Below are positions 5,310 through 18,144 of a stretch of 49,336 nt of DNA, in pieces; the stretch's first letter is position 1, and every line of letters begins with the position of its first letter. The notes under the pieces are model-generated. The model was not told the DNA's origin. It was given only the letters and a program-made list of their open reading frames with translations, and did not search any database. Source of the stretch: Lachnospiraceae bacterium (lineage in GTDB: Bacteria > Bacillota > Clostridia > Lachnospirales > Lachnospiraceae); NCBI GenBank assembly GCA_017623675.1, contig JAGAOO010000064.1:1-49336 (forward strand). Direction: 5' to 3'. The translations under genes were made by a program, and so were the position numbers.

Positions 5310-6170
5310 TCAAAGCACACCCCTTAACAGGAAGGAACCCATATAAACTGCCTGCATCACTCTTCCACCACCGCCTTGCTTTGGAACCAAAAACTCACTT
5401 AGAATTCTTGGAGTAGCAAACGCTACAACAATAACTACTATTGCATACACAGCCAACTCTGAAGAGTAGACAATCCTTGATATATCTAATTTCATAATCA
5501 TGAACAATGCCACATTCAACAAAAAGACCTGTATGATGATAGTCAAGACTTCTTTTACAAGTAATTTGGTATACGGCTTAAAAACACCTTGATCGGAATC
5601 TAATAGACCACAACAGGCAAGCGGCATCCCTATTCGTAATAGCCATAGTTCTACTCCATTTTTTATCTGAAAAATCATCAAAATGCCTGCAAGCAGTGCA
5701 AAAACAGGTATTAAAAGGATAAGGGGTGTGTTTCCTGATGATTCTCCCATGAGTCTCAATGCATCATATATTGATTTTCCATCTACTAAACTTAAGCTTG
5801 CCAACAAATCATTTGAAAAATCAAATGCGATATCCAGAATCCAGCTCCAGATAGTAGTAAAACTCATGGATATAACCATAGCTTTGCAAAAATTTGTAAT
5901 CAGTACAAAAATATCTGCATTGGCATCACCATCAGTTTGTAATGCGTACACATCAAATATCTTTTTAATAAACTTTAAGATAATTAAATAGTAAGAATAC
6001 AAAAAAATTGTGTTCCTTACCATTGAAAAGATAGTACCAAACTCATCAAAACGCCGTTGTATATCTAATGACTGTATTAACACTGTTTTATTCAACATCT
6101 CAAAAATCCATGAAATACCCTGGTCGCTGAAAACTACATCCCATATTAAATCTATTAAGATTTTATACAT
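5310..6170 (-). CDS. VirB6/TrbL-like mating-channel membrane protein
   Basis: 286 residues from the ATG at 6170, preceded by GTGGGG eight bases upstream; a GTG at 6179 would add three residues. About six hydrophobic segments are seen, with a polar loop after the second, and a glycine-rich end (PKQGGGGRVMQ). This is the profile of VirB6/TrbL-type polytopic proteins that form the inner-membrane channel of type IV secretion systems. It starts just after the VirB2-like gene and is followed by small membrane genes. Confidence 0.7.
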   Translation of the reverse strand: MYKILIDLIWDVVFSDQGISWIFEMLNKTVLIQSLDIQRRFDEFGTIFSMVRNTIFLYSYYLIILKFIKKIFDVYALQTDGDANADIFVLITNFCKAMVISMSFTTIWSWILDIAFDFSNDLLASLSLVDGKSIYDALRLMGESSGNTPLILLIPVFALLAGILMIFQIKNGVELWLLRIGMPLACCGLLDSDQGVFKPYTKLLVKEVLTIIIQVFLLNVALFMIMKLDISRIVYSSELAVYAIVVIVVAFATPRILSEFLVPKQGGGGRVMQAVYMGSFLLRGVL

Positions 6171-6175
6171 TAAAA

Positions 6176-6472
6176 TCACCCCACAAAATATGACTTAACC
6201 AAATCAAACAATTCCGGAGCCAATACAATAAGGACAAAGATTGCCGCTAAACCAATCTGCCATTTCGTGTACCGCTTCCGTTCCTGCTCCTCTTCCTGTG
6301 ACTTTTTTATACATACAACAATAAAAGTCAAGATGATTATGATACCTCCGATAATCTGAGCTGCACCGATTCCATCATTAAACATATTCTGCAATCCTTG
6401 TCCAAAAATGGAATCTAAAATCTTATTTCCTGTTAAAATTACATTCATCATTACATATGGTGTTATATTCAT
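6176..6472 (-). CDS. VirB2/TrbC-like small membrane protein
   Basis: 98 residues with two membrane helices (about 39-56 and 74-92) around a charged loop rich in Glu, Arg and Lys. Its ATG (6472) overlaps the 3' end of the coupling-protein gene by four bases. In Gram-positive transfer clusters a small two-helix protein between VirD4 and VirB6 genes is usually the VirB2/TrbC-like component. No long signal peptide is apparent. Confidence 0.6.
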   Translation of the reverse strand: MNITPYVMMNVILTGNKILDSIFGQGLQNMFNDGIGAAQIIGGIIIILTFIVVCIKKSQEEEQERKRYTKWQIGLAAIFVLIVLAPELFDLVKSYFVG

Positions 6473-8301
6473 TCCTCATCGTCTCCTTCCTTAATACCTG
6501 CTTTTACATTCTTTTCTAATGCCCGTTTTGTTTTTTCCTGATACTTTTTCCAGATACCCCATAGTTCAATGTCTCCAATTGGTTTTGCTATCCGTTCCTG
6601 ATGTCGTTTCATTCTTAATTGGCAGTTATGTTCTTCATCCCCCATTCCAAAGCGTGAATTAAAACTCCATTGACTCAAATCCGGTGCATACATAATTGCC
6701 GGATGATACGATGTCCTCATGATCAGAGAATAAGGACGTTTTATTCTTGCCACCTCTTCAGCAGTCAATAGCCTTCGTCCTACGAGATTGGCACTGGAAG
6801 ACGATTCTCCGGCATGATGCTTATTGTAACTAAGGTTATATGCTTTGGTTGTATAATTATCTAATTCTTTTGATATGATTTCTCTTGTGTCTTCATCTGT
6901 TGACCGCAAATAAACTTTTGTTTCGCAGTTGTTGCGGATTGTTTTCGCTGCCTCTTTTCCATATTTCTCATCCAACTGTGCAAAATCCTGTAGAAATAAA
7001 TGGAATCGGATTCCCTTTCCTCCGGCAACCGTAAGCAATTGGGTAAAATCCGGAATCTTTGCAAAATTTCCGAATTCATCCGCTATAATTTCTATCCGAA
7101 CCGGTAATCTTCCACCTTCACTTTTTGCCAGTCTGGACAAGCGACTGTAGGTTTGTGCAATAAATAAAGTTGCAATAGAATGATAGGTCGTCCGGTCTTC
7201 CGGCAACACAATGAAAACTGCCATCTTTTTTTTGCCCATATCTTCCGGCTGAAAACTACTGCATTTTGTAATACTGCAAAGGTTGGGATTTGTAAACAAC
7301 CGTAAAGTCATTAAAGCAGCAGTATAAAAGGAACTTCTCGTTCTGGACGGTGCAATGCCTGCAACTGCAAAGATACCCTTACATGGATGATTATCTGACA
7401 AAGCTGCACGATAAAGGTTAATTGGCACCAATTCTCCTATCGGTGTACACATTTCTACAAGAAAGTAATATACATTGGTCATGTTCCGGTATTTCTGCAT
7501 TTCCGGTGCCCGATTATCATAACAGACCGCCATGATTGCTCCGGCAATTGCAGTACACTCACCATCCGTCCAAATCCGTTCTCCTTTCGGCTCTCCAACA
7601 AGCTGAGAAACTATGTCCCAGGCAGCATCAGTTGCTTTGGGAATCTCGCCTGCGTCAATATAATCAATCACCGGCTGCAGAAGATTATACTCTGCCGAAA
7701 GTTCCTGTTCATCATAATCAACGATATGCACCTCATATTCCTGTTCTCTAAGAAAGGTAGCAGTATAATCGGACAACTCACCTTTAATATCTGTAATCAA
7801 CATACTTTCTCCGGCCAATGCACAGAAGCCAATTGTTTCTAATACTTCATGTCTTGTCTTGCCGGAACGGGTAGAACCAATCGACAGGGTATGCGTGTCA
7901 TTACCAATGTAATAAACCTTTTCTTTTCCATTCTGCAAATCTCTCTTTCCTATCACCAGTCCACCCTGTTTGATTTCCTGCGTATCCTGATTTATCACAC
8001 AGGTTTCATAGACTTTATCAAATTCTTTTTCCTTAAGCCATTTGGCAGTTCCATGCTGTCCCTGTCCTGCCGGAGCCGGTGTTTTAATATCCGGCGTTAT
8101 TTCAATCAAATCAACTTTATTCTGTACCTGCCCGGCAAATAAATAAAATATGCCTGCCCCTTCCAGAATTAGAAAGGCAACGCCGAATTTCAAATAACTG
8201 CTTTCCGGTATTGGCAGTTTTTTCAGAATAATAAAATTAACTGCAGCAAGAAATAACACAAGGACAATTCCCAGTAATACTTTTTTTCCTTTATCTTTCA
8301 T
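6469..8301 (-). CDS. Type IV coupling protein, VirD4/TraG family
   Basis: 610 residues from the ATG at 8301, with GGAAGAGG upstream and overlapping the relaxase stop; a longer upstream reading lacks a better start. Two N-terminal membrane helices (about 8-28 and 39-57) precede the motor domain. Walker A is GSTRSGKT (142-149) and Walker B is IEIIADEFGNF, followed by a LFLQDFAQL block typical of VirD4/TraG. These hexameric ATPases bind the relaxosome and protein substrates and feed them to the channel. It would be the receptor for any protein with a secretion tag encoded by this element. Confidence 0.93.
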   Translation of the reverse strand: MKDKGKKVLLGIVLVLFLAAVNFIILKKLPIPESSYLKFGVAFLILEGAGIFYLFAGQVQNKVDLIEITPDIKTPAPAGQGQHGTAKWLKEKEFDKVYETCVINQDTQEIKQGGLVIGKRDLQNGKEKVYYIGNDTHTLSIGSTRSGKTRHEVLETIGFCALAGESMLITDIKGELSDYTATFLREQEYEVHIVDYDEQELSAEYNLLQPVIDYIDAGEIPKATDAAWDIVSQLVGEPKGERIWTDGECTAIAGAIMAVCYDNRAPEMQKYRNMTNVYYFLVEMCTPIGELVPINLYRAALSDNHPCKGIFAVAGIAPSRTRSSFYTAALMTLRLFTNPNLCSITKCSSFQPEDMGKKKMAVFIVLPEDRTTYHSIATLFIAQTYSRLSRLAKSEGGRLPVRIEIIADEFGNFAKIPDFTQLLTVAGGKGIRFHLFLQDFAQLDEKYGKEAAKTIRNNCETKVYLRSTDEDTREIISKELDNYTTKAYNLSYNKHHAGESSSSANLVGRRLLTAEEVARIKRPYSLIMRTSYHPAIMYAPDLSQWSFNSRFGMGDEEHNCQLRMKRHQERIAKPIGDIELWGIWKKYQEKTKRALEKNVKAGIKEGDDEE

Positions 8302-9322
8302 ATCCTCTTCCTTTCTTCTGTTCTGCAACAAATTCATCCATGGCTGCTTTTGTTCCAACCCGGCTGAATGCATCATGGTTTTGTAGCGGATATGGCTGCT
8401 CTGCTGCTTGAATCAGATTTTTAGCAATAAATAAAACACTGCGGATTCCCTGGTACGCTTCCATACCTTCCATTTGCTCCGCAGCCTCCTGTGCCTTTTC
8501 GATTTCTAAAACCTGTTTATTTAATTCAAATTGTTTTAATAGAGCCTCTTTCGTAAACGCTTCTACCGGTTCCAACCGATGATTCCGTACCCGATGCCCA
8601 AGGCTATCACTAAAGGTTATATACTTACGTTCATCCTTCCATGTCACACCAAAGCCAAGTTCCTTCATTTTATGAATAAAATCTGCCTGACTGACTGCTT
8701 CCTGAGAACAAAGCACTGCGGCAATCCGGATTTCTTCCTTCCAGCTTTCCCCTTGCTTTAATACCTCTACTTCATTCTTCCTCTTGTGCGGAACCGTATA
8801 ATTTTCTTTCTTTTGACATATGGACAATTTGTACTCCCGGCAAAGCTGGTCGGAATAATCCTTAATTGCCTGCATGTCCTCTTTACTAATATGCCACTGC
8901 TTTCCGGTTTCTTTATTGCAGGCATCAAGAACAAAATGCGTATGGATATGTCCAGTATCAATATGTGTTGCATACAATACCTGAAATCCATCAAACAATT
9001 CATGCTGCAATAGTTTTCCTGCGATTTCCGATGCCATTTCAGGAGTAATTTCATCTTCAATATCAAAACTCTGTACGAAATGAATAATCATTCTTCGTTC
9101 CCCATCTTCCGTCTTGTCCCAAAGCTGTTTATTTAATACGAATTCTTCATAAGCATTCTGAGGAGAACAGTTCATCCCTTTAATCAATTCTTCCCTGGTC
9201 TTATCAAGATTGGTGACATAATCAATGACTCTTTTCATGGATGCATGGGTTTTATATCCATGGTATGTTCCCTGCTTAGAATAAGATTGGCCATTCAAAA
9301 ATTCCACTATCCCCATCGTCAT
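8291..9322 (-). CDS. Relaxase (MobA/VirD2 family)
   Basis: 343 residues. The N-terminus has the relaxase signature RVIDYVTNLDKT with the likely nicking tyrosine at Tyr35, then NCSPQNAYEEF, and the metal-binding histidine motif HIDTGHIHTHF (His120 to His129). These fit the PF03432 relaxases that nick oriT and pilot the strand into the recipient. Its ATG directly follows the mobC stop, and its stop overlaps the coupling-protein start, so the three are one transcription unit. The C-terminus is coiled-coil-like and does not carry the shared tail seen in three other proteins of this element. Confidence 0.93.
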   Translation of the reverse strand: MTMGIVEFLNGQSYSKQGTYHGYKTHASMKRVIDYVTNLDKTREELIKGMNCSPQNAYEEFVLNKQLWDKTEDGERRMIIHFVQSFDIEDEITPEMASEIAGKLLQHELFDGFQVLYATHIDTGHIHTHFVLDACNKETGKQWHISKEDMQAIKDYSDQLCREYKLSICQKKENYTVPHKRKNEVEVLKQGESWKEEIRIAAVLCSQEAVSQADFIHKMKELGFGVTWKDERKYITFSDSLGHRVRNHRLEPVEAFTKEALLKQFELNKQVLEIEKAQEAAEQMEGMEAYQGIRSVLFIAKNLIQAAEQPYPLQNHDAFSRVGTKAAMDEFVAEQKKGRGYER

Positions 9323-9817
9323 TCACCCGTCTTTCATGATATGCATAAGTTGTTTTAAAACCTTTTTTAACGTCTTATTTACATCCTCTAAATCCGGACA
9401 AGTCACCTTGCCCTGATGTGCCAGTATGGTCAACTGATTCAGGTTCGTACCAATCTTTGAAATCTGATGCAGCAATTCTTTTCCGTTGACAATAACAACC
9501 GTTTGCTCTTTTAACGCTGCACGAATCATATACTCACCATCAGTAAGTCCGGCTCGGACTGCAATTTCATGAATGACTTTTTTGTCTTTATTACTGATCC
9601 GGAAATTCATTACAGCATCTTTCCGTTTGGCTCGCTCCCGCTTTTCCATTTCAATAATTGGTTTCGAAAGCCTTGTCACTGCATCTAACTGTTCTGCACA
9701 GTATTCAGAAACACTCTTCCCGGCAAGAGCTGCAGCAACCGTTATCTGCTCTTTCAATTCTTCCCGGCAACGAAAATGAACATCACTTGTCTTTCTGATG
9801 TTATCACTTCCCTTCAT
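9323..9817 (-). CDS. mobC: MobC-type relaxosome accessory protein
   Basis: 164 residues. The C-terminal half has the MobC signature ISKIGTNLNQLTILAHQGKV. The N-terminal half has a helix-rich, basic DNA-binding part with FRCREELKEQI and, later, MNFRISNKDKKVI, which look like two related short segments. MobC proteins bind oriT and help the relaxase melt the nick site. The ribosome site before the ATG at 9817 is weak (AAAGG, 17 bases away), but no better in-frame start is seen. The putative oriT lies immediately upstream. Confidence 0.85.
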   Translation of the reverse strand: MKGSDNIRKTSDVHFRCREELKEQITVAAALAGKSVSEYCAEQLDAVTRLSKPIIEMEKRERAKRKDAVMNFRISNKDKKVIHEIAVRAGLTDGEYMIRAALKEQTVVIVNGKELLHQISKIGTNLNQLTILAHQGKVTCPDLEDVNKTLKKVLKQLMHIMKDG

Positions 9818-9827
9818 CTATATTGCT

Positions 9828-9950
9828 ACTACTACCTTTACTACTACAAGAAGGTCTTAGGGATACCTCCCTAACAAGCTCAATGTGTCACGAATGTGAT
9901 ACATTGGGGAAGCTTGCCCCTACTACCGTAGGTATTACCGAAAAGAAATA
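9828..9950. other. Candidate origin of transfer (oriT)
   Basis: This non-coding stretch between mobC and the primase-like gene is dense in structure. It has CTACTAC direct repeats (about 9835-9847, and again as CCCTACTACC near 9918). It has three inverted repeats: TTAGGGA/TCCCTAA around TACC (9857-9874); AATGTGTCAC/GTGATACATT around GAAT with one mismatch (9882-9905); and GGGG/CCCC around an AAGCTT core (9906-9920). Position just upstream of mobC and the relaxase is where oriT is normally found. The nick site is not assigned. Confidence 0.6.
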
Positions 9951-9952
9951 CC

Positions 9953-10918
9953 CTAGGGCGGTTCTTCCTTCCCAGGAACCTGCGGAGCGTCCTTAGACCG
10001 GCTATTCAGGAAGTCCTGAAAGACCTTCTTGACCAGAAGTTCATTGAAATCCTTATAAGGCTTTGGGGACTGTCGCTTGACTTCATATGTTAGACCGTAA
10101 GCTTTATAAATCTGAATAAATGCATCCTCTCCGGCGGAGTCATTGTCGGTACAGACAATCAGTTTTCGAATATCCGGATGTTCTACGATATATTGTTCCA
10201 AAGCTGCAGTTGAAATGCCGGATAAACTGATATAATGATCGCTATACTTTATACCTGACTGTTTCAGCAGCGTCAGATAGGAAATCAAATCAATTGGCGA
10301 TTCAAAAATATATAAAGCATCTGTGGTTCCCTCGATGGAAAAAGCATAACGTTTGTCTGATCCGGCTGCATCACCTTTGAATGGTCGCTGGGTTTTCGTA
10401 CCACGTAGGGATGCAAACCGTTCTATGCCATTCTTGTCATATCCAACAAAGACACAATTCTCATTTTTATCTTCATAAAGTTTGTGATTTTTCACTAAAT
10501 CCTGAACCAGTTCTGCATCTAATTTCCGGGCATTCACTAAGTAGGCAAATATATGCTTATATGTAGTATTCTTTGGTGGCAGTCTGAAATTTGATTTATC
10601 AACCGTTTTACTTTTCCTTTCAGTAGGGTGGTACAGGAAGTCAGTATTTGATTCCAGGTCAATATTCAATAATTCCTTCACCGCTTCTACCCAAGGAAGG
10701 TGTTTCATCGCCATGACAAATTGTATCGGGCCGCCGCCCCGGTGTTCGGCTTCCCAATACCATTTATCCGGTTCCAACAATAGACCGCCAAAGCCGGGTA
10801 TCCTAAAATATCCTTTGCTATATTCTTCTACTGGATAGCCCTGGCTTTTTGCATATGCAATGATGTTGATGTGATTCACCTGCTCTAGCTGTTCTTCCGT
10901 AAAGCGATAATATGGCAT
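9953..10918 (-). CDS. DUF3991/TOPRIM domain protein (primase-like)
   Basis: 321 residues. The N-terminal part has the DUF3991-type pattern GYFRIPGFGGLLLEPDKWYW followed by HRGGGPIQFVM, as in zinc-finger-less primase modules. The C-terminal part has a TOPRIM fold with the conserved glutamate in YIFESPIDLISYL and the D-x-D in LIVCTDNDSAGEDAF. Such genes are common on Firmicutes integrative and mobilisable elements and are thought to prime the incoming single strand; activity is not shown here. A hairpin with a T-tract stands in its leader (10939-10966). It ends in a proline-rich tail unlike the ArdA tail. Confidence 0.85.
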   Translation of the reverse strand: MPYYRFTEEQLEQVNHINIIAYAKSQGYPVEEYSKGYFRIPGFGGLLLEPDKWYWEAEHRGGGPIQFVMAMKHLPWVEAVKELLNIDLESNTDFLYHPTERKSKTVDKSNFRLPPKNTTYKHIFAYLVNARKLDAELVQDLVKNHKLYEDKNENCVFVGYDKNGIERFASLRGTKTQRPFKGDAAGSDKRYAFSIEGTTDALYIFESPIDLISYLTLLKQSGIKYSDHYISLSGISTAALEQYIVEHPDIRKLIVCTDNDSAGEDAFIQIYKAYGLTYEVKRQSPKPYKDFNELLVKKVFQDFLNSRSKDAPQVPGKEEPP

Positions 10919-10938
10919 TGGGTCACCTTCTTTCTGAC

Positions 10939-10966
10939 ATAAAAATAACGAAGGTCACCCTTCGTT
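10939..10966 (-). terminator. Attenuator-like hairpin before the primase-like gene
   Basis: AACGAAGG (10947-10954) pairs with CCTTCGTT (10959-10966) around a four-base loop. On the minus strand it is followed by ATTTTTATG. It sits in the 64-base gap between ardA and the primase-like gene, so it can end or attenuate the upstream transcript. Confidence 0.55.
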
Positions 10967-10982
10967 CCAATTCAATATTTAC

Positions 10983-11093
10983 TTACATACCCAAGACCGG
11001 GCCTTGTGATGCAGCCTGGGCTTCCAGTAACATTTCTTCGGCCAGTTCATCCAACTTGGCTTCATCTATTCCTTCCGGGAAATTTACCTCTGT
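10983..11093 (-). repeat. Shared gene-end module, copy 1 (ardA)
   Basis: Encodes TEVNFPEG, IDEAKLDELAEEMLLEAQ and AASQGPVLGM plus stop. By hand count it differs from the copy at 13142-13252 at about 7 of 111 positions, although the genes before it are unrelated. Confidence 0.9.
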
Positions 11094-11759
11094 TTGTTCC
11101 TGGGGTTCTGCCGCCTGTACCTGCTGTTTCTCTCCACCAGTTCCAGTCACCCGATATTCTTCCGGAATTTCCTTTCCATCAAATTCCATACACCATTCTT
11201 CGTTAGTATATGAAATATATCCATTATCTGAGAATCCGCCAAAGTCATTAATCATAGCGTCTCGTCCATATGCTTCATAATCAATATAGTTCGCTAAGTC
11301 CCCCATCTTTTCCAAGTCATAGCCTCCGAATTCATTCACCAAATAATGTCCTAAATCATATTGATCATTAACTCCAGGCATGAATACATATGTATCCAGA
11401 TTGTAGGTTAAATTAATACAGGTTTCTAAGCTATCCGGTTCTGCAAGGTCAATTCCGGTACTTAATACCTCCTTAAACATCTCAAACTCATAATCCTCTA
11501 ATTCATTTAATCGTGAAGCTAAATAATTCAGACTGTCTACGTTTTCAAATTCGCCAAGTTTCTCTTTTAGGTTCGAAATATCTGTATCATAATCTGTTAT
11601 GAAATATTCTTCATACTGTTTATTGATACCAATCCGTTCAAACACTCCCTGCATATCTTCTCTGGTGGTCGGAAAAGATACCCATTCACCAAGCAGCTCT
11701 CCTTCGTTGTACTTTCCAAGATTTGTTACATAAGCTTTAAAATTAAATTTCTTATCCAT
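10983..11759 (-). CDS. ardA: Antirestriction protein ArdA with extra C-terminal tail
   Basis: 258 residues. Residues 1-190 match ArdA: FNFKAYVTNLGKYNEGELLG at the start, an acidic body with ITDYDTDI, and YISYTNEEWCMEFDG. ArdA mimics B-form DNA and blocks type I restriction enzymes in a new host; typical ArdA proteins are about 165-180 residues. The extra 60 residues are a Gln/Glu linker and the tail NFPEGIDEAKLDELAEEM then LLEAQAASQGPVLGM, nearly identical to the ends of two other proteins of this element. GGAGG lies upstream of the ATG. Antirestriction makes sense if the protein acts in the recipient. Confidence 0.9.
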   Translation of the reverse strand: MDKKFNFKAYVTNLGKYNEGELLGEWVSFPTTREDMQGVFERIGINKQYEEYFITDYDTDISNLKEKLGEFENVDSLNYLASRLNELEDYEFEMFKEVLSTGIDLAEPDSLETCINLTYNLDTYVFMPGVNDQYDLGHYLVNEFGGYDLEKMGDLANYIDYEAYGRDAMINDFGGFSDNGYISYTNEEWCMEFDGKEIPEEYRVTGTGGEKQQVQAAEPQEQTEVNFPEGIDEAKLDELAEEMLLEAQAASQGPVLGM

Positions 11760-11802
11760 GTGTTATACCTCCATAAAAATAGAGGAAGTTTCTAACCTCC
11801 GC

Positions 11803-11847
11803 TTAGTTTCTGTGTTCAGTTTCTTTCCTTTTTACCATCAATTTCAT
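11803..11847 (-). CDS. Possible 14-codon leader peptide upstream of ardA
   Basis: A tiny frame, MKLMVKRKETEHRN, begins at an ATG at 11847 with AGGT seven bases upstream and stops (11803-11805) just before a weak GAGG/CCTC hairpin with TATTTTTATG (11771-11799), ahead of the ardA ribosome site. The layout resembles a translated leader controlling attenuation, but the hairpin is weak and the frame may be chance. Confidence 0.2.
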   Translation of the reverse strand: MKLMVKRKETEHRN

Positions 11848-11898
11848 ATAAATGACCTGTTACATCCCTCCTTCACAATACTGTGATTCTTATCCGGC

Positions 11899-11985
11899 TT
11901 ACATACCCAAGATCGGTCCCTGTGATGCAGCCTGAGCTTCCAGTAACATTTCTTCTGCTAACTCGTCCAGCCTGGCTTCATCTAT
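11899..11985 (-). repeat. Shared gene-end module, copy 2
   Basis: Encodes IDEARLDELAEEMLLEAQ and AASQGPILGM plus stop. Homology with copies 1 and 3 stops just upstream of the isoleucine, where this gene reads AME instead of PEG. Confidence 0.85.
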
Positions 11986-13119
11986 TTCCATTGCATCTTC
12001 GATTGTTTTATCCGTTATTTCATTGAGATGCTCGCCTTCCACATATTCCTTCACTTCATCTATATCTTTGCAAAACTTCCCATTTCCAGAATAATATCCG
12101 CTTGTAATTTTCTGTACATTAAATGGATATTCCGGATTTTCTGTCGACACTACTTTATAATAATTATCTGCATCCTGTCTATATGGTTCCACAAGCTCAT
12201 TGGCATGTTCTAAAGCGTTTTCATAATTGTTATTCAGCCACCGCACTGCATCTTCTCTTATTTTCTTAAATCCACAAGAATCATATGAATAATTTATGTA
12301 TAACTTATGACTGGTAAATGGAAGATTACTTCCCATTAATTCTTTTGTCAATAAATCATATGAGACCAGCGTTTTTCCATGAATATCAATTAGTCCTCCA
12401 CTTCCATCTTCATAACGTTCCCATCCTTTTGCCTGATATATCGGATGCAATTCTTTCTCATCGACAAATGACATTTTTTCTGCTATCTCATCCAGCCTGG
12501 CTTCGTCTATTTCTTTCTGTACCTCCTTATCAACAACCAACTGCGTTTCAGTTTCTGGCTCCGGCACAACTATTTTTACATTCAAACAATTTTCTACAAA
12601 CATTTCTTCCTTAATCTTTTGAAGATTTTCTCTTGCTCTGAGTTCTACCTGCAGTTCCATCATTTGCTTCATTAAGTAATCTTTTATTTCATCCGGACAG
12701 GTACAGCCACATTCCTCTTCCAGACCTTGAAGTACTTGGTGTGCATTCTCGGCCAGTTCTTTCCATTCATCCACAACCAGATAAAATTCGCTTTCTGTTC
12801 CATAACTACTGAAATCTTCCAGAATGATTTTCTGTATTTCATCCGGTTCTATTCCAAAACGATATCTCGTAGTATACTGTTGTGAAAATTCCTTTACAAT
12901 GTCCTCGACTTCCTCAAGCTGAAAATTTATCTCCTGTTTTGATTCTTCAACCAGTTTCCAATCCGGATTACTTTTCAGAACCTGTTCTAAAATATTTTCT
13001 CTTTCATCCTGAATCATCTGTACCCTTATACCGATTTCTTCATTGTCATTAAAATACCCGTCGTGATAAGCATAAAAAAAATCTCTCCATGCCATTGTTA
13101 ATGGATTTAACCGTCTCAT
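11899..13119 (-). CDS. Unknown element protein with internal and C-terminal copies of the shared tail
   Basis: 406 residues from the ATG at 13119, preceded by AAAGGAG; longer upstream readings only run through the previous gene in another frame. The first half is rich in Glu and Lys and probably coiled-coil; the second half contains aromatic-rich segments (GWERYEDGSGGLIDIHGK and SGYYSGNGKF). I do not recognise a family. It ends with IDEARLDELAEEMLLEAQ then AASQGPILGM, the same tail as ArdA and the AAA ATPase. Around residues 204-216 it has a second, shorter copy, IDEARLDEIAEKM. This suggests a fusion of two tagged units. It lies between the AAA ATPase gene and ardA. Confidence 0.8.
   Translation of the reverse strand: MRRLNPLTMAWRDFFYAYHDGYFNDNEEIGIRVQMIQDERENILEQVLKSNPDWKLVEESKQEINFQLEEVEDIVKEFSQQYTTRYRFGIEPDEIQKIILEDFSSYGTESEFYLVVDEWKELAENAHQVLQGLEEECGCTCPDEIKDYLMKQMMELQVELRARENLQKIKEEMFVENCLNVKIVVPEPETETQLVVDKEVQKEIDEARLDEIAEKMSFVDEKELHPIYQAKGWERYEDGSGGLIDIHGKTLVSYDLLTKELMGSNLPFTSHKLYINYSYDSCGFKKIREDAVRWLNNNYENALEHANELVEPYRQDADNYYKVVSTENPEYPFNVQKITSGYYSGNGKFCKDIDEVKEYVEGEHLNEITDKTIEDAMEIDEARLDELAEEMLLEAQAASQGPILGM
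12472..12510 (-). repeat. Internal partial copy of the shared module
   Basis: Encodes IDEARLDEIAEKM in the middle of the 406-residue protein. It matches the first 13 residues of the tail at 11 positions and then diverges. Confidence 0.7.
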
Positions 13120-13141
13120 GATCAATCTCCTTTCCTTTCGT

Positions 13142-13252
13142 TCACATACCCAAGACCGGTCCCTGTGATGCGGACTGTGCTTCCAGTAACATTTCTTCGG
13201 CCAGTTCATCCAACTTGGCTTCATCTATTCCTTCCGGAAAATTTACCTCTGT
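13142..13252 (-). repeat. Shared gene-end module, copy 3 (AAA ATPase)
   Basis: Same 36-codon block as in ardA, ending in TGA instead of TAA. Similarity begins sharply at Thr-Glu-Val-Asn. Confidence 0.9.
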
Positions 13253-14062
13253 TGGTTCCTGTGTTGCCGGTACGATAATTTTATCCTTTTCAATTATTAC
13301 TTCTATGCTATCTCCGGTTTTATCTGTCAGCTTATATTTCAAATCATCTACTTTCTCGATATCTACATAACCTTCCTGATAATTCTGCAACACAAAATCT
13401 TTTACTATCTGATTGCTGTGTGCGTCTCGGATTCTGTGTAACGTATGAATACTGTTGTCTACGATTTTACCAACCGTTTCGTGGTTATACGTTCCATAAT
13501 AAATCTTATTATCATCCAATAGATTTTGAATCTGCAAATCTTTTTCCATGCTCTCTTGTAAATCGTGTATTCGTCCTTCCTGTTGGAACTGGGTTTTATC
13601 TCGATTTACAAAGAACACAAAATTATTATACTGACCATGAATTTCTAATAATGTCCTTGCATATTCCGGTGTTAACTGCTGATTATAAATACCATTTAGC
13701 AAAATAGGCGAATCCGTTACCACAAAATCCACTTTCCCGATATACCGGTCTACCCTCTTTAACTGTTCCTGAAGAATTTCATACTGGTGTTCCGCAGTTC
13801 CGTCTAACATTTCAAAGTTCTCATCATAGACATAATCCTTCGCTACCTCGGATACATACTCAGCATTGTATCCTCGTTTCTTTAATTGCTGGCAGATATC
13901 CATGCAGGCAACTGTCTTACCGGAACCCGGACCACCAAAGGCACTGATAACTAAAGTCTGCCTGTTATGTAATGCCTGTTGCTGATACACTTTATCAATA
14001 TGTTCAAAAGCATACTCCTGCATATCAGCATTTAAGCTCTCATGTTGATTTTCTTCTTGCAT
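13142..14062 (-). CDS. AAA ATPase (AAA_28/NadR-like P-loop protein) with shared tail
   Basis: 306 residues. Walker A is FGGPGSGKTVACMDI (about 43-57), followed by GYNAEYVSEVAKDYV and a Walker B-like VDFVVTDSPILL, as in AAA_28 nucleoside-kinase-like ATPases. The C-terminal third is a linker with short strands (KYKLTDKTGDSIEVI) and then TEVNFPEG plus the tail IDEAKLDELAEEMLLEAQ and SASQGPVLGM. It starts three bases after the parB stop and is probably in the par operon. Its substrate is unknown. The tail is the same as in ArdA two genes downstream. Confidence 0.85.
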   Translation of the reverse strand: MQEENQHESLNADMQEYAFEHIDKVYQQQALHNRQTLVISAFGGPGSGKTVACMDICQQLKKRGYNAEYVSEVAKDYVYDENFEMLDGTAEHQYEILQEQLKRVDRYIGKVDFVVTDSPILLNGIYNQQLTPEYARTLLEIHGQYNNFVFFVNRDKTQFQQEGRIHDLQESMEKDLQIQNLLDDNKIYYGTYNHETVGKIVDNSIHTLHRIRDAHSNQIVKDFVLQNYQEGYVDIEKVDDLKYKLTDKTGDSIEVIIEKDKIIVPATQEPTEVNFPEGIDEAKLDELAEEMLLEAQSASQGPVLGM

Positions 14063-14065
14063 AAA

Positions 14066-15067
14066 TTATCCCTCCTTCTTAAAATATGCTTCCAAAGCTG
14101 CTTCAATCACTTCTTCAATTTCTTTCTGTCTCGTTCCCTCCTTAAAATACTTCTGAATGATCATACCCTGAATCTTAAATGCTTTTGGACGTCCCGGTTT
14201 CTTCAACTGCTTTCCGGAAAGAATATCCTTCATGGAATCTTCATTCAGTTTGCCCTGCATTTCCAGTTTTCTTAAATCCTGTGCCTTTTTAATATCTACC
14301 TTATAGGCATCCAATAAATCATCTAATTGCTGTTGATGTTCTTCCGTTAAGTAAGATATCTCTACTCCGGCACGTAATGCTATCTCATCCATATCCATCC
14401 GGTCTTTTAATTCACTGGTAAGCGTATAGATTCTTAAGTATCTGCCAACTGTATTTTTTGACAGTTCATAGGCATCTCCGGCATCCCGTAAATTGCCTTT
14501 TGTCCCCATTGGGGACAAACCCTCATCAGCCATTGAATTTACTGGGTTTGCAAGGCTTTTAATTTCTTCATTAATTTGCTCTAAAAAGCCTTTTCTGACC
14601 CCCTGAAAATTAGTCGCATTGTAGTGAGCATTTATGACTTCTGCACGTTCACTATGGCTCATATCCGCCCAGGAACGTTGCAGCAGATTTGTTTCCGTTT
14701 CAATCAAATCTGCTTCCGCTTCTGTCAGCCCTGTCTTAATGACTGCCGGTATCTCCTGCAACCCTGCTTCCTGTGCCATTGCAGTTCGCCGGTGTCCGGC
14801 TAATATTTCATATTCATTTCCCAGAGGCTGAACAATGATTGGTTCCAACACGCCGAATTCTTTGATGGACTGTAATAAATCCTGATTCTTTTTTCCTAGA
14901 TTTACCTGAAACTTGTGATTCTTTTTTGGATGCAGCTTAGCAATCGGTAAAAAGCCGGAATGTCCGGTTTCATCCTGCGTCTGTACAACTTCATCAACTT
15001 CCGGTTCAAATCCACCAAACATATCATCCAGACTGGTAAGTTTTCGGTTGGTGTTTAGTTTACTCAT
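14066..15067 (-). CDS. parB: ParB/Spo0J-family partition protein
   Basis: 333 residues. The ParB N-terminal nuclease-like fold is clear: IKEFGVLEPIIVQPLGNEYE, then ILAGHRRTAMAQEAG, then ETETNLLQRSWADMSHSER. A central helix-turn-helix region (DAYELSKNTVGRYLRIY) binds DNA. The C-terminal part is basic and helical. AAGGAGG lies before the ATG at 15067, which overlaps the parA stop by eight bases. With ParA it should act in partition of a plasmid-like or excised form of the element. Confidence 0.9.
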   Translation of the reverse strand: MSKLNTNRKLTSLDDMFGGFEPEVDEVVQTQDETGHSGFLPIAKLHPKKNHKFQVNLGKKNQDLLQSIKEFGVLEPIIVQPLGNEYEILAGHRRTAMAQEAGLQEIPAVIKTGLTEAEADLIETETNLLQRSWADMSHSERAEVINAHYNATNFQGVRKGFLEQINEEIKSLANPVNSMADEGLSPMGTKGNLRDAGDAYELSKNTVGRYLRIYTLTSELKDRMDMDEIALRAGVEISYLTEEHQQQLDDLLDAYKVDIKKAQDLRKLEMQGKLNEDSMKDILSGKQLKKPGRPKAFKIQGMIIQKYFKEGTRQKEIEEVIEAALEAYFKKEG

Positions 15068-15857
15068 GCTCTACTACCTCCTTTGCAAATGCCTGATAGG
15101 CCTGCGAAACTTTGTTATTCTCTGCATACTGAATAATAGATTGACTCTGCAGCGTAGATTCTCCTACTTTTACTGAATATGGAATCTTTGTTTTATAGAT
15201 GGGAACCGCCTGACCGTATGTATTGCATACTATCTCTTCAACGGTCTGTGTCAGACGCATCCGTTCTTTGTACATAGTAAAAAGAATTCCTTCAATCTCC
15301 AGCTCCGGATTAATCTTCCTCTTTACCCGTAAAATGTTCTTCAGCAAGATTTCTAATCCTTTGGCCGATAAATATTCCGGTGTAACAGGTATTATGACGG
15401 CCTGTGCTGCTACAAGTGCATTGATCGTAAGCATGCCCAACGATGGAGAGCAGTCAATGATGATATAATCATAGTCTGCTTTCAGTTCTGCCAGTATTCC
15501 TTTTAATATACTCTCCCGACATACCGCATTTACTAGGCTCACATCCACTGCTGAAAGTTCCATGCTGCATGGAATGAAATCCAGAGCCACACCGCTATCT
15601 GAGGTATGATGATAGATGTAATGATAATCTTCCGGCAGCTCCATATCTTCCATGACACGCTGCATCAGCGTTGCTATTGTACATTCCAGGCTGTCAGTAT
15701 CATCATAACCCATGCACACTGTTAGAGAACTCTGTGGGTCAAAGTCTATCAGCAGAACTTTCTTACCTGCTTCTGCCAGGGCATAACCCAGATTCATTGT
15801 TGTGGTAGTCTTTCCTACACCACCTTTTTGATTTACGACTGCAATAATTTTTCCCAT
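15060..15857 (-). CDS. parA: ParA-family partition ATPase
   Basis: 265 residues from the ATG at 15857, after AAAGAGGTAAAAGAC; a further 14 codons upstream lack a ribosome site and run through an attenuator hairpin. Deviant Walker A KGGVGKTTTTMNLG is at residues 11-24, Walker A' is LLIDFDPQSSLT, and Walker B is YIIIDCSPSLGMLTINAL. This is the Soj/ParA type that works with ParB at a parS site. It is the first gene of the element's long minus-strand cluster. Confidence 0.93.
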   Translation of the reverse strand: MGKIIAVVNQKGGVGKTTTTMNLGYALAEAGKKVLLIDFDPQSSLTVCMGYDDTDSLECTIATLMQRVMEDMELPEDYHYIYHHTSDSGVALDFIPCSMELSAVDVSLVNAVCRESILKGILAELKADYDYIIIDCSPSLGMLTINALVAAQAVIIPVTPEYLSAKGLEILLKNILRVKRKINPELEIEGILFTMYKERMRLTQTVEEIVCNTYGQAVPIYKTKIPYSVKVGESTLQSQSIIQYAENNKVSQAYQAFAKEVVEHE

Positions 15858-16212: not shown

Positions 16213-16821
16213 CTAATTGGCATTCTCTTGTATCTCATAAAACCAATCTGCATATCGATGATTGGGTTCATATACTACAACCTCTGCCTGTCCTTCCTCC
16301 AACAGAATCGCATTGAACATATATTGTTCAACATCCTCTTTGGATTCAACATCTACATCATCGGTCAGCCAGACATAAGCAAGCACCCGGTCGTATTGGT
16401 CATACAATTCCTCATCATATTGCAAATACAGGGTTTGATAATCCTCTAGATATTCTTTTGTAAATTCACCGGCTTCTTTTCCCTTTTCTGTATTTCGCTC
16501 TACATCCCGGTGTACCGATTCTTCACAATTGACACAAAGCAGTCGTACACGAATCTCTTCACCGGATTTCTCCACGATAATCGTATCTCCATCTACAACA
16601 CGTACCAACCTTACTGCTTCTAATTCTCCACTCTCTTCAACGGTTTTGAATCCTATACGCCCTGCAGCGAAAAGAATTATGACTGCCAATATCAACACAA
16701 TCAAAATCCTTGGCTTGTGACTGCCAATATTTCTTCTTTTTCTTTGATATGACTTACCCTGCCTTTTGGCACGATTTATTGTATCTTTTACTTTTGTTAA
16801 TTCTTGTAATTCTGATTTCAT
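16213..16821 (-). CDS. Membrane-anchored thermonuclease-like (SNase fold) protein
   Basis: 202 residues. A basic N-terminus (KRQGKSYQRKRRNIG) and a membrane helix (about 39-56) precede an SNase domain: RLVRVVDGDTIIVEK, then RVRLLCVNCEES, then DQYDRVLAYVWLTD, then NAILLEEGQAEVV. In the usual family motif RLIGIDTPE, the aspartate that binds calcium is Asn here (CVNCEE); the glutamate and both arginines are present. Catalysis may be changed. The ATG is seven bases after the stop of the M18 peptidase gene, so it appears to be the last gene of that chromosomal operon rather than part of the mobile element. Confidence 0.8.
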   Translation of the reverse strand: MKSELQELTKVKDTINRAKRQGKSYQRKRRNIGSHKPRILIVLILAVIILFAAGRIGFKTVEESGELEAVRLVRVVDGDTIIVEKSGEEIRVRLLCVNCEESVHRDVERNTEKGKEAGEFTKEYLEDYQTLYLQYDEELYDQYDRVLAYVWLTDDVDVESKEDVEQYMFNAILLEEGQAEVVVYEPNHRYADWFYEIQENAN

Positions 16822-16827
16822 TTTCTC

Positions 16828-18144
16828 TCACTCACAACCATACTGAAAATATATCTTAGCCAGTTCCCGTAGGCTTCGATAATCCTCACAGGCTGCCAGT
16901 TCTCTTGCCGAATGCATAGCCAGCATTGGAATTCCCACATCTGCTCCCTGCATCGGCAGAACTGCTGCCAGAATTGGACCTAAGGTCTGTCCTCCGGGCA
17001 TGCCGGAACGGTTTACCTGTTGCTGACAAGGGACACCCCCAATACGGCACAGTTCCTTAATCACTGCCGATGCCTCACTATCAGACAAATACCTCTGACT
17101 GGCACTGGTCTTGATGACCACACCTTTTCCCAAAGGAACCTGATTGGTTGGGTCGCTTTTTTCCGGATAGTTTGGATGATGTCCTTGGGCTCCATCCATA
17201 GAAAGTAAAAATCCCTTTGCCAAGGCATCTCTCCATTTTGTTGTATCAATCCCCAGTGAAACTCCCAACTTTTCCATTACCTGTGGAAGTAACACCGAAT
17301 CTGCCCCCTGCTTAGAACGGCTTCCAATTTCTTCATTGTCAAACATCGCTGCCACAGCAATATTGGAATGCACCTGTCCGGTCAGATCCTCCATTGCCTC
17401 TACCAAAGCGGATACAGAAGCCAGATTGTCAATCCTCGGTGCACAAATCATTTCCTGATGTAAACCCACCAGTTCCGGTGCATCCATATTGTATAAATAC
17501 AAATCATAATCCAGCAGCTCCTCAGAAAGAATTCCAAATTCCTGTTCTAAATATTCTTTCAAAAAATCCTCTGATTCCTGTAATCCAAAAATAGGCATCA
17601 TCTCCTGCTGGATATTCATTTCTGTCTTTTCTCCACCCTTTGCCAAATGAGGTGCCAGGGAAGGAATCACGCAAACTGCCCGCTTTGATTCAATGAATCT
17701 TACCTGCGGATGAAATGCATCTGTTCCTTTTAATACCACCTTTCCGGCTATGCCTAATGGGCGGTCAAACCACGTAGACTTTAATAAGCCTCCATAGGGT
17801 TCCACATTCCCACGTACATAATAATTCCCCGAAAGTTTGGGATTCGCTTTTATTTTTAAACATGGAGAATCCGTATGTGCGGTTGCAATGCGAATATTAG
17901 GACTTCCCTTTTTATATTCCTGTCCTATACTGACTGCAATCAGCATAGAAGGAAACGGGGTCAGCAGATAATTCTTACCTGCTTCTACCTCCCATGATGC
18001 TCCGTATTCTAGTTCCTGAAATCCTGCCTTTAATAGTCGTTCCTTACAGTGTGCTACTACATGAAACGCAGAGGTTCCCCTTTCTATGATTTCCTTGAAT
18101 GTTTCTATTTCTTTGAATGCTTCCTCATTTTTGAATCTTTCCAT
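16828..18144 (-). CDS. M18 family aminopeptidase
   Basis: 438 residues of usual length for the family. Metal-binding and catalytic motifs are in order: TAHTDSPCLKIK (first His-x-Asp), APRIDNLASV, MFDNEEIGSRS, and near the C-terminus PMLAMHSARELA. M18 enzymes are cytosolic dizinc peptidases that prefer acidic or aromatic N-terminal residues. AAAGGTGAAGAA precedes the ATG at 18144, which overlaps the end of the transglutaminase gene by 40 bases, so coupling is likely. Confidence 0.93.
   Translation of the reverse strand: MERFKNEEAFKEIETFKEIIERGTSAFHVVAHCKERLLKAGFQELEYGASWEVEAGKNYLLTPFPSMLIAVSIGQEYKKGSPNIRIATAHTDSPCLKIKANPKLSGNYYVRGNVEPYGGLLKSTWFDRPLGIAGKVVLKGTDAFHPQVRFIESKRAVCVIPSLAPHLAKGGEKTEMNIQQEMMPIFGLQESEDFLKEYLEQEFGILSEELLDYDLYLYNMDAPELVGLHQEMICAPRIDNLASVSALVEAMEDLTGQVHSNIAVAAMFDNEEIGSRSKQGADSVLLPQVMEKLGVSLGIDTTKWRDALAKGFLLSMDGAQGHHPNYPEKSDPTNQVPLGKGVVIKTSASQRYLSDSEASAVIKELCRIGGVPCQQQVNRSGMPGGQTLGPILAAVLPMQGADVGIPMLAMHSARELAACEDYRSLRELAKIYFQYGCE

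Follow-up and report, generated by a model that had tools for sequence, protein, structure and literature searches.

A C-terminal tail shared by unrelated proteins of a Lachnospiraceae conjugative element, possibly a recruitment signal for its type IV secretion system

A common tail on three proteins of a conjugative element

The DNA analyzed here (hereafter the window) is a complete contig of 49,336 bases from a Lachnospiraceae genome of 2.8 Mb in 84 contigs. Bases 1 to ~16,000 carry on the minus strand a partial conjugative element, which encodes ParA, ParB, an AAA_28 ATPase, a protein of 406 amino acids (aa), the antirestriction protein ArdA, a DUF3991/Toprim protein, MobC, a relaxase, the coupling protein VirD4, a pilin and TrbL (Table 1). 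A sequence-only reading of the window had claimed that ArdA, the 406-aa protein and the ATPase end in a common tail, and this was borne out: all three are encoded on the minus strand, adjoin the transfer genes on the same strand, and carry the pattern IDEA(K/R)LDELAEEMLLEAQ(A/S)ASQGP(V/I)LGM at their C-termini.

Alignment of the last 40 aa gave scores of 183, 129 and 126 for the three pairs, compared to a maximum of 44 among 8,766 background pairs from 133 open reading frames (ORFs, called mechanically throughout), from which 12 of the original 8,778 pairs, scoring at least 45 and having alike cores, had been removed as homologues. Outside the tail the proteins are unrelated, as first read (core scores 36-45 for the three pairs). 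On the DNA level, a direct repeat of 118 nucleotides (nt) is 94% identical between ardA and the ATPase gene and 69% between ardA and the 406-aa gene; the ardA and ATPase copies show seven differences from CAGGAA to the stop, and the alignment confirmed a sharp upstream border. In ArdA the tail occupies residues ~226-258 of 258 and thus lies outside the conserved domain (Pfam match at residues 9-182, solved Tn916 ArdA aligned to 7-171), following a linker that is hypervariable in comparison with the related element L015 described below. The relaxase, ParA, ParB and the primase-like protein lack the tail, in agreement with the earlier statement, and so do MobC, VirD4, the pilin and TrbL. No Pfam match above cut-off was obtained for the tail: two window tails scanned alone did not match IDEAL PF08858 (curated cut-off 22 bits), and one tail of the element G188 (below) reached 19.2 bits against this model, below that cut-off.

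The window's own genome holds the tail at four places, all in this locus. The fourth is an internal, truncated copy within the 406-aa protein (EIDEARLDEIAEKM), without the terminal half (LLEAQ..GPVLGM). The N-terminal part of the 406-aa protein is homologous to a 258-aa protein of the element G106 that bears a terminal tail (core score 374), and the 406-aa protein is weakly related to a fusion protein of L015 (core score 100). The homology to the shorter tailed protein suggests that an old tail became internal through gene fusion and then lost its tip; the internal copy would be its relic. A second AAA_28 ATPase copy was observed elsewhere in the same genome (L008 517-2109, G000:C4; 530 aa, 69% over residues 17-214); it has a different, long C-terminal part and no tail.

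Table 1. Features of the conjugative element in the window and positions of the tail copies
Feature	Position	Strand	Support and remarks
Tail copy 1, ArdA, ...PEGIDEAKLDELAEEMLLEAQAASQGPVLGM	10986..11090	-	
Tail copy 2, 406-aa protein, EIDEARLDELAEEMLLEAQAASQGPILGM	11902..11988	-	
Tail copy 3, ATPase, ...PEGIDEAKLDELAEEMLLEAQSASQGPVLGM	13145..13249	-	
Internal truncated tail copy EIDEARLDEIAEKM within 406-aa protein	12471..12513	-	To copy 2, 91% over 43 nt; 59% over 17 aa
ardA, antirestriction protein ArdA, 258 aa, C-terminal tail	10983..11759	-	PF07275 E 2.2e-37 (residues 9-182); PDB 2w82 (7-171)
406-aa protein, C-terminal tail	11899..13119	-	No Pfam match above cut-off
AAA_28-type ATPase, 306 aa, C-terminal tail	13142..14062	-	PF13521 E 1.6e-10
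TrbL/VirB6-like channel protein, no tail	5310..6179	-	PF19597 E 3.8e-57
T4SS pilin-like protein, no tail	6176..6472	-	PF18895 E 6e-06
VirD4 coupling protein (CD1115-like), proposed receptor	6469..8301	-	PF02534 E 1.2e-47; NCBIfam NF045973 E 6.2e-85; start codon by eye
Relaxase, C-terminus KGRGYER, no tail	8291..9322	-	PF03432 (Pfam)
MobC/NikA-like relaxosome protein, no tail	9323..9817	-	
DUF3991/Toprim (primase-like) protein, no tail in window	9953..10918	-	PF13154, PF13155
ParB, no tail	14066..15067	-	PF02195 E 6.9e-15
ParA, no tail	15060..15857	-	Name and start by eye
T4SS, type IV secretion system.

Tails and a short acidic motif in related elements

The element G106 (JAMOZY010000010.1), from the same genus, has a near-identical gene order plus an extra 526-aa protein, and in the slot of ardA it encodes ArdC, which retains a tail. 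Its ATPase (...MLLEAQAEQGMVMER), 258-aa protein (...MLLEAQADQGMAMER) and ArdC (...MLLEAQAEQGMILEM) give tail pairs scoring 59-85. The ATPase is a 70% identical orthologue of that in the window (core score 991, identical 182/260) with a diverged tail. A 618-aa protein ~28 kb away, encoded beyond a VirB4-like ATPase (TraG P-loop) and ahead of a recombinase (by eye), ends in ...RLEEQMRLEAQAEAMEPEMEMVM; its likeness to the three other G106 tails is weaker (40, 41 and 51), and it is a putative member of the element. In L015, from a Lachnospiraceae metagenome-assembled genome, a single fusion protein with an ArdA part ends in ...IDEARLNEIAEEMMLEEQAFMNGPELEM. Six unrelated proteins of G188, an element of another genus, end in versions of ...AIEEALEAAELQExxFEMEM (ArdC, ArdA, pentapeptide-repeat, DUF4116-repeat and NT5C/DpnD-PcfM proteins and one unknown), and all 15 pairs score 47-105, above the background maximum of 44. 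By score, the tails group by element: within-element values were 126-183 in the window and 59-85 in G106, while orthologues across these two elements reached 44 (ATPase) and 45 (406-aa vs. 258-aa protein), and non-orthologues across 42-46 among the pairs listed. The window and G188 show this grouping firmly, G106 less so.

The tail peptide itself looks selected. Codons were compared in 12 tail pairs from three elements (four of the six G188 tails were used). Five of them, namely three G188 pairs that include the pentapeptide protein and two G106 pairs that include ArdC, approach synonymous saturation (pS 0.88-1.02) but contain few replacements (pN 0.06-0.17). Another four pairs have pS of 0.41-0.47 and pN of 0.04-0.08, and the remaining three (pS 0.09-0.22, pN 0.01-0.06) were apparently copied recently, i.e., window ardA vs. 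ATPase (pS 0.20), G106 ATPase vs. 258-aa protein (0.22) and G188 ArdA vs. DUF4116 protein (0.09).

A search with the tail alone, as proposed in the sequence-only reading, retrieved only the window and, in diverged form, G106; the tailed proteins are diverse cargo of VirD4-encoding elements. A tail profile run on 397 family genomes matched strongly only the window's genome (G000) and G106, with weak matches in 19 other genomes (best E 0.068), of which the inspected loci (G003, G176) had no shared tail; tblastn of the tail against plasmids and phages gave no match. L015 was reached through the neighboring gene, in a DUF3991 scan that returned three loci including L014 (G106 again) and a distant match left unused (L016). 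No match resulted from an ATPase scan of genome contigs, and viral contigs yielded nothing useful. The window, G106 and L015 all encode VirD4, which was present in each of the six elements scanned for it, out of 15 in total (the former three, the G188 fragment, G278 and G054).

Among the pairs listed, no tail-like ones were seen in G208, G102, G368, G494, G604 and G522 (the contigs of G102 and G494 are short; the top pair of G208, scoring 52, consists of two neighboring ORFs, transporter ATPases by eye), nor in nine ArdC-anchored regions, with three exceptions. These are a lysine-rich pair in L078 (46), apparently non-coding repeats in L084 (up to 150), and L079 (G007), an element of another type, where a 530-aa ArdC-region protein (9153-10745) and its 399-aa neighbor (10823-12022) have KLAEK(K/H)SELG in common ~20 residues from their C-termini (score 51), which might be a shared tail of another kind.

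Searches with a relaxase profile (11/397 genomes of the family at E 1e-40, 38/295 of the order at 1e-40 and 7/84 of the class at 1e-50, the window's genome included) led to a broader set. A second family (f22) contributed eight elements in which many cargo C-termini consist of an acidic run and a hydrophobic-acidic tip, for instance DDWELEV, DDWEIEI, DEEMEL, EEEMEL or EEELEM. Cargo was defined by position, from ParB to MobC or from the contig start, and downstream/transfer ORFs as all those on the same strand up to 17 kb beyond; background regions were partly those around ArdC or relaxase matches. A simple rule, [DE][LMIV][DE] in the last 8 residues of ORFs of at least 180 aa, was fitted across 15 elements by 34/73 cargo ORFs, compared to 4/101 downstream/transfer (including the tailed G188 DUF4116 protein) and 3/133 background ORFs. 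The enrichment recurs in both families (cargo 16/33 and 18/40; downstream/transfer 3/51 and 1/50), the motif occurs in the cargo of 13 of the 15 elements, and it is concentrated at the very end (34/73, vs. 10/73 four residues inward and 185/4,696 internal windows). The last 20 aa of cargo carry a mean net charge of -4.2, compared to -0.53 inside the same proteins, and the 73 cargo proteins taken together show a trend toward glutamate-rich C-termini with hydrophobic residues (net charge -4.15 and -4.28 vs. -0.11 to -0.20 in controls).

In addition, a position-specific scoring matrix (PSSM) of the last 8 residues was trained on seven first-family elements (f1), where it passes 32/48 cargo ORFs, and applied to the eight of f22, with cargo and downstream/transfer ORFs of at least 90 aa and background ORFs of at least 180 aa. 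It passed 20/53 cargo, 5/84 downstream/transfer and 2/133 background ORFs (Fisher's p 4.2e-6 vs. downstream/transfer and 8.8e-11 vs. background, values that are optimistic because several f22 elements are closely related and the counts non-independent). The f22 elements had been partly inspected before the PSSM was built, and the simple rule was set after G728, G711 and G703 had been seen, their regions having been fetched before the PSSM and read afterwards. In three class-level elements unread before the PSSM was fixed (ORFs of at least 120 aa, three of five contigs, G703C4 and G716 excluded), it passed 5/18 upstream vs. 1/21 downstream ORFs; the later simple rule gave 8/18 vs. 1/21.

Tailed or motif-bearing cargo in the relatives comprises ArdC, pentapeptide-repeat, DUF4116, DUF3991/Toprim and helicase/methylase polyvalent proteins. 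In G728, one of the three class-level elements, ArdA (PF07275) ends in TDEMEV and the relaxase in EELDEMEF; the large motif-bearing proteins of G278, G345 and G711 contain helicase domains, with methylase domains in two, which is consistent with polyvalent proteins. Two CD1110-type elements may hold a weak form of the tail: the PSSM passes 1/58 ORFs (VirD4), and a loose motif is met by 3/58, namely both ArdA polyproteins (GEIEL, QDLERS) and one neighbor (HDMEV). Some long tails also end in the short motif (L015, ELEM; G188, EMEM; the G106 618-aa protein, EMEM), and from these bridging cases we infer a single signal behind long tails and short motif.

Several further observations concern element layout. 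Terminator-like hairpins (9 sites found in the stretch vs. 4.9 expected) lie on the minus strand between ardA and the DUF3991 gene (10947-10966) and between the 406-aa gene and ardA (11784-11800). A 22-nt inverted repeat, GGTATTTCTTTTCGGTAATACC, is identical in the window (9931-9952, minus strand) and L015 (10970-10991), in both after the DUF3991 stop and before mobC; its exact pattern was absent from the fetched loci of other genomes, G106 included, and it is a candidate oriT element. The same chromosomal pair (nuclease-like and aminopeptidase-like genes, by eye) stands beside the elements of the window (16213-18144) and G106 (L010 12667-14720), suggesting one insertion site in two species, while the L015 element is located elsewhere, not beside this pair. 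Tad-pilus-like genes (by eye) follow VirD4/TrbL in L059 (G054), L061 (G278), L116 (G561), L118 (G496) and L125 (G510); the G054 ATPase has sub-threshold matches to VirB11 and TadA models, and the plasmid pLS20 has an annotated tadA. In G496 (L117 8145-17651), a large reading frame that is a single 2368-aa frame in G430 is apparently interrupted by an ORF of 593 aa that may represent a group II intron.

Possible functions of the tail

We lean, at slightly better than even, toward the tail being a portable C-terminal recruitment signal for the VirD4-type T4SS of the element itself. It would mark cargo useful to the incoming DNA as secretion substrates (ArdA or ArdC, the AAA_28 ATPase and partner proteins, joined in relatives by polyvalent, pentapeptide-repeat and Toprim proteins), so that donor-made copies could enter the recipient during mating. 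Such a signal would start with a hypervariable linker, continue as an acidic segment (helix-prone by eye) and close with a short tip that is partly hydrophobic; many relatives would have only an acidic run, the last 8 residues containing [DE]-hydrophobic-[DE]. In the best cases, one near-identical version is present on every tagged protein of an element, and different elements have different versions. Reading of a C-terminal signal by VirD4, to which the tail is predicted to bind, would account for its position, its spread over unrelated proteins and the likeness within elements, as a single receptor, drifting along with its element, would be expected to hold all tails of that element to one version. 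A more speculative extension, which we consider doubtful, is a private address code, in which receptor and tail drift together, selection and gene conversion keep the cargo genes in step, and a captured gene becomes deliverable on gaining the local tail. If true, co-resident elements would not deliver each other's protein cargo.

A number of results weigh against recruitment to the T4SS. The exact tail had no match in 298 other genomes of the family and, by gapped identity, the tails of G106 are no closer to one another (19/30, 17/25 and 14/28) than orthologues across elements (15/23 and 16/23). The simple motif is missing from 39 of the 73 cargo proteins, and none of the positional cargo of the window (0/4) or G106 (0/5) fits it, so that the link between long tails and short motif depends on L015, G188 and the G106 618-aa protein. 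The PSSM also passes 8/86 downstream/transfer ORFs of its own training elements. Both the recruitment signal and the private code are weakened by the relaxases, since only 2 of 32 distinct ones fit the simple rule; five of 32 end in [LMI][DE][MIFLV], the window and G106 relaxases terminate in KGRGYER, and the PSSM, which passes 11/32 including these two, is unspecific for relaxases. The plasmid pLS20 of Bacillus subtilis shares a CD1115-family VirD4, a MobP relaxase, a DUF3991/Toprim protein and a zincin/ArdC with the elements described here, but its ArdC ends in ENTEEDQISTAS, with no acidic tail (a single case), and its DUF3991/Toprim end is basic; among 34 of its proteins checked, one fits the simple motif (the relaxase) and two pass the PSSM. 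Finally, antirestriction proteins need not be delivered: according to the portions of the sources consulted, R388 ArdC produced in the recipient is active, though it may be exported as well (PMC7213743), ColIb-P9 ArdA is expressed during conjugation from a leading-region promoter (PMC8744291), and pLS20 ardC is presumed to be recipient-expressed (PMC8708921).

The strongest competitor is a docking handle that tethers the proteins, in donor or recipient, to one hub outside secretion (e.g., the incoming DNA complex, an element scaffold, or a replication or partition factor). We regard it as possible but unlikely. A C-terminal acidic peptide that finishes in a hydrophobic tip represents a classical docking design, as in the single-stranded DNA-binding protein (SSB), uniformity within an element would suit any single partner, some ParBs have a related end (EEEDEELTL in G561, EEGEEMIE in G496), and most relaxases lack the motif; yet no hub candidate emerged. 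In SSB the acidic run ends in Pro-Phe, whereas the tails here mostly end in M, I, L or V, and none of the compared tails of the window, G106 and G188 ends in PF (in contrast to DDDLPF of the pLS20 SSB). The extreme C-terminal position behind a hypervariable linker would also suit a degron that makes the proteins short-lived, for instance after establishment in the recipient, but a long segment is conserved at the amino acid level and a host protease would not require element-specific versions, which makes this improbable.

The two remaining explanations deny the peptide a function. Recent DNA copying by gene conversion or cassette swapping, an alternative already raised by the sequence-only reading, fits the sharp-bordered 118 nt that are 94% identical between the ardA and ATPase copies, and three of the 12 pairs (pS at most 0.22) indicate that such copying occurs; it leaves unexplained, however, the five older pairs in which the peptide was retained near synonymous saturation, and the codon counts thus render it very improbable. 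Even less credible is that glutamate-rich ends arose as a by-product of last codons overlapping the Shine-Dalgarno sequence of the next gene: some tails lie directly 5' of GGAGG, but 40 of 60 motif-bearing genes end at least 25 bp from the next mechanical start, and common tails of 20-30 aa could not be produced in this way.

Should the tail serve recruitment to the T4SS, the protein cargo that accompanies DNA in Gram-positive conjugation would become readable from sequence. The tag would then offer a handle on the proposed transfer of polyvalent proteins and, being short and portable, could be used to study protein delivery in gut commensals. If it serves docking or degradation instead, the likeness of one short peptide across as many as six unrelated genes per element would still be unusual.

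Comparison with known systems

As the sequence-only reading had supposed, no description of such a tail was found among the papers listed by literature searches, judged by titles and the beginnings of abstracts, with most subscription journals outside the search. C-terminal signals of VirB/D4 substrates are reportedly positively charged, going by the title of a 2005 article by Vergunst; the proposed signal would likewise be C-terminal and act via VirD4, but its charge is opposite (net -4.2 in the last 20 aa of cargo).

The closest likeness is to the E-block of the Dot/Icm type IVB secretion system, for which the part of the source consulted describes unrelated substrates whose extreme C-termini contain a glutamate stretch and several hydrophobic residues, with a receptor proposed in the coupling complex (PMC11602083). 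The tails resemble this signal in having a glutamate-rich run with hydrophobic residues at the end of unrelated proteins, a likeness and not membership. They differ from it, as described there, in belonging to conjugative elements (with a T4SS of the VirD4/TrbL/pilin type in the window), in marking antirestriction and similar cargo, and in being, in the best cases, uniform over 20-30 aa within an element.

In F-type systems, plasmid-encoded maintenance proteins including ParA, ParB and SSB reach the recipient, with a VirD4-type receptor, and the consulted portion of that work describes no common tail (PMC8406263); in the window, ParA and ParB are without one. Polyvalent proteins (with ArdA, ArdC-N, zincin or SNF2/methylase domains) of Firmicutes conjugative elements, whose transfer has been proposed, belong to the same families as the cargo here, and a common C-terminal tail is not described in the sections consulted (Iyer 2017, PMC5512222). 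While C-terminal secretion signals as such are already known, what is distinctive here is the Clostridia conjugative setting, the antirestriction cargo and, in the best cases, a near-uniform version per element.

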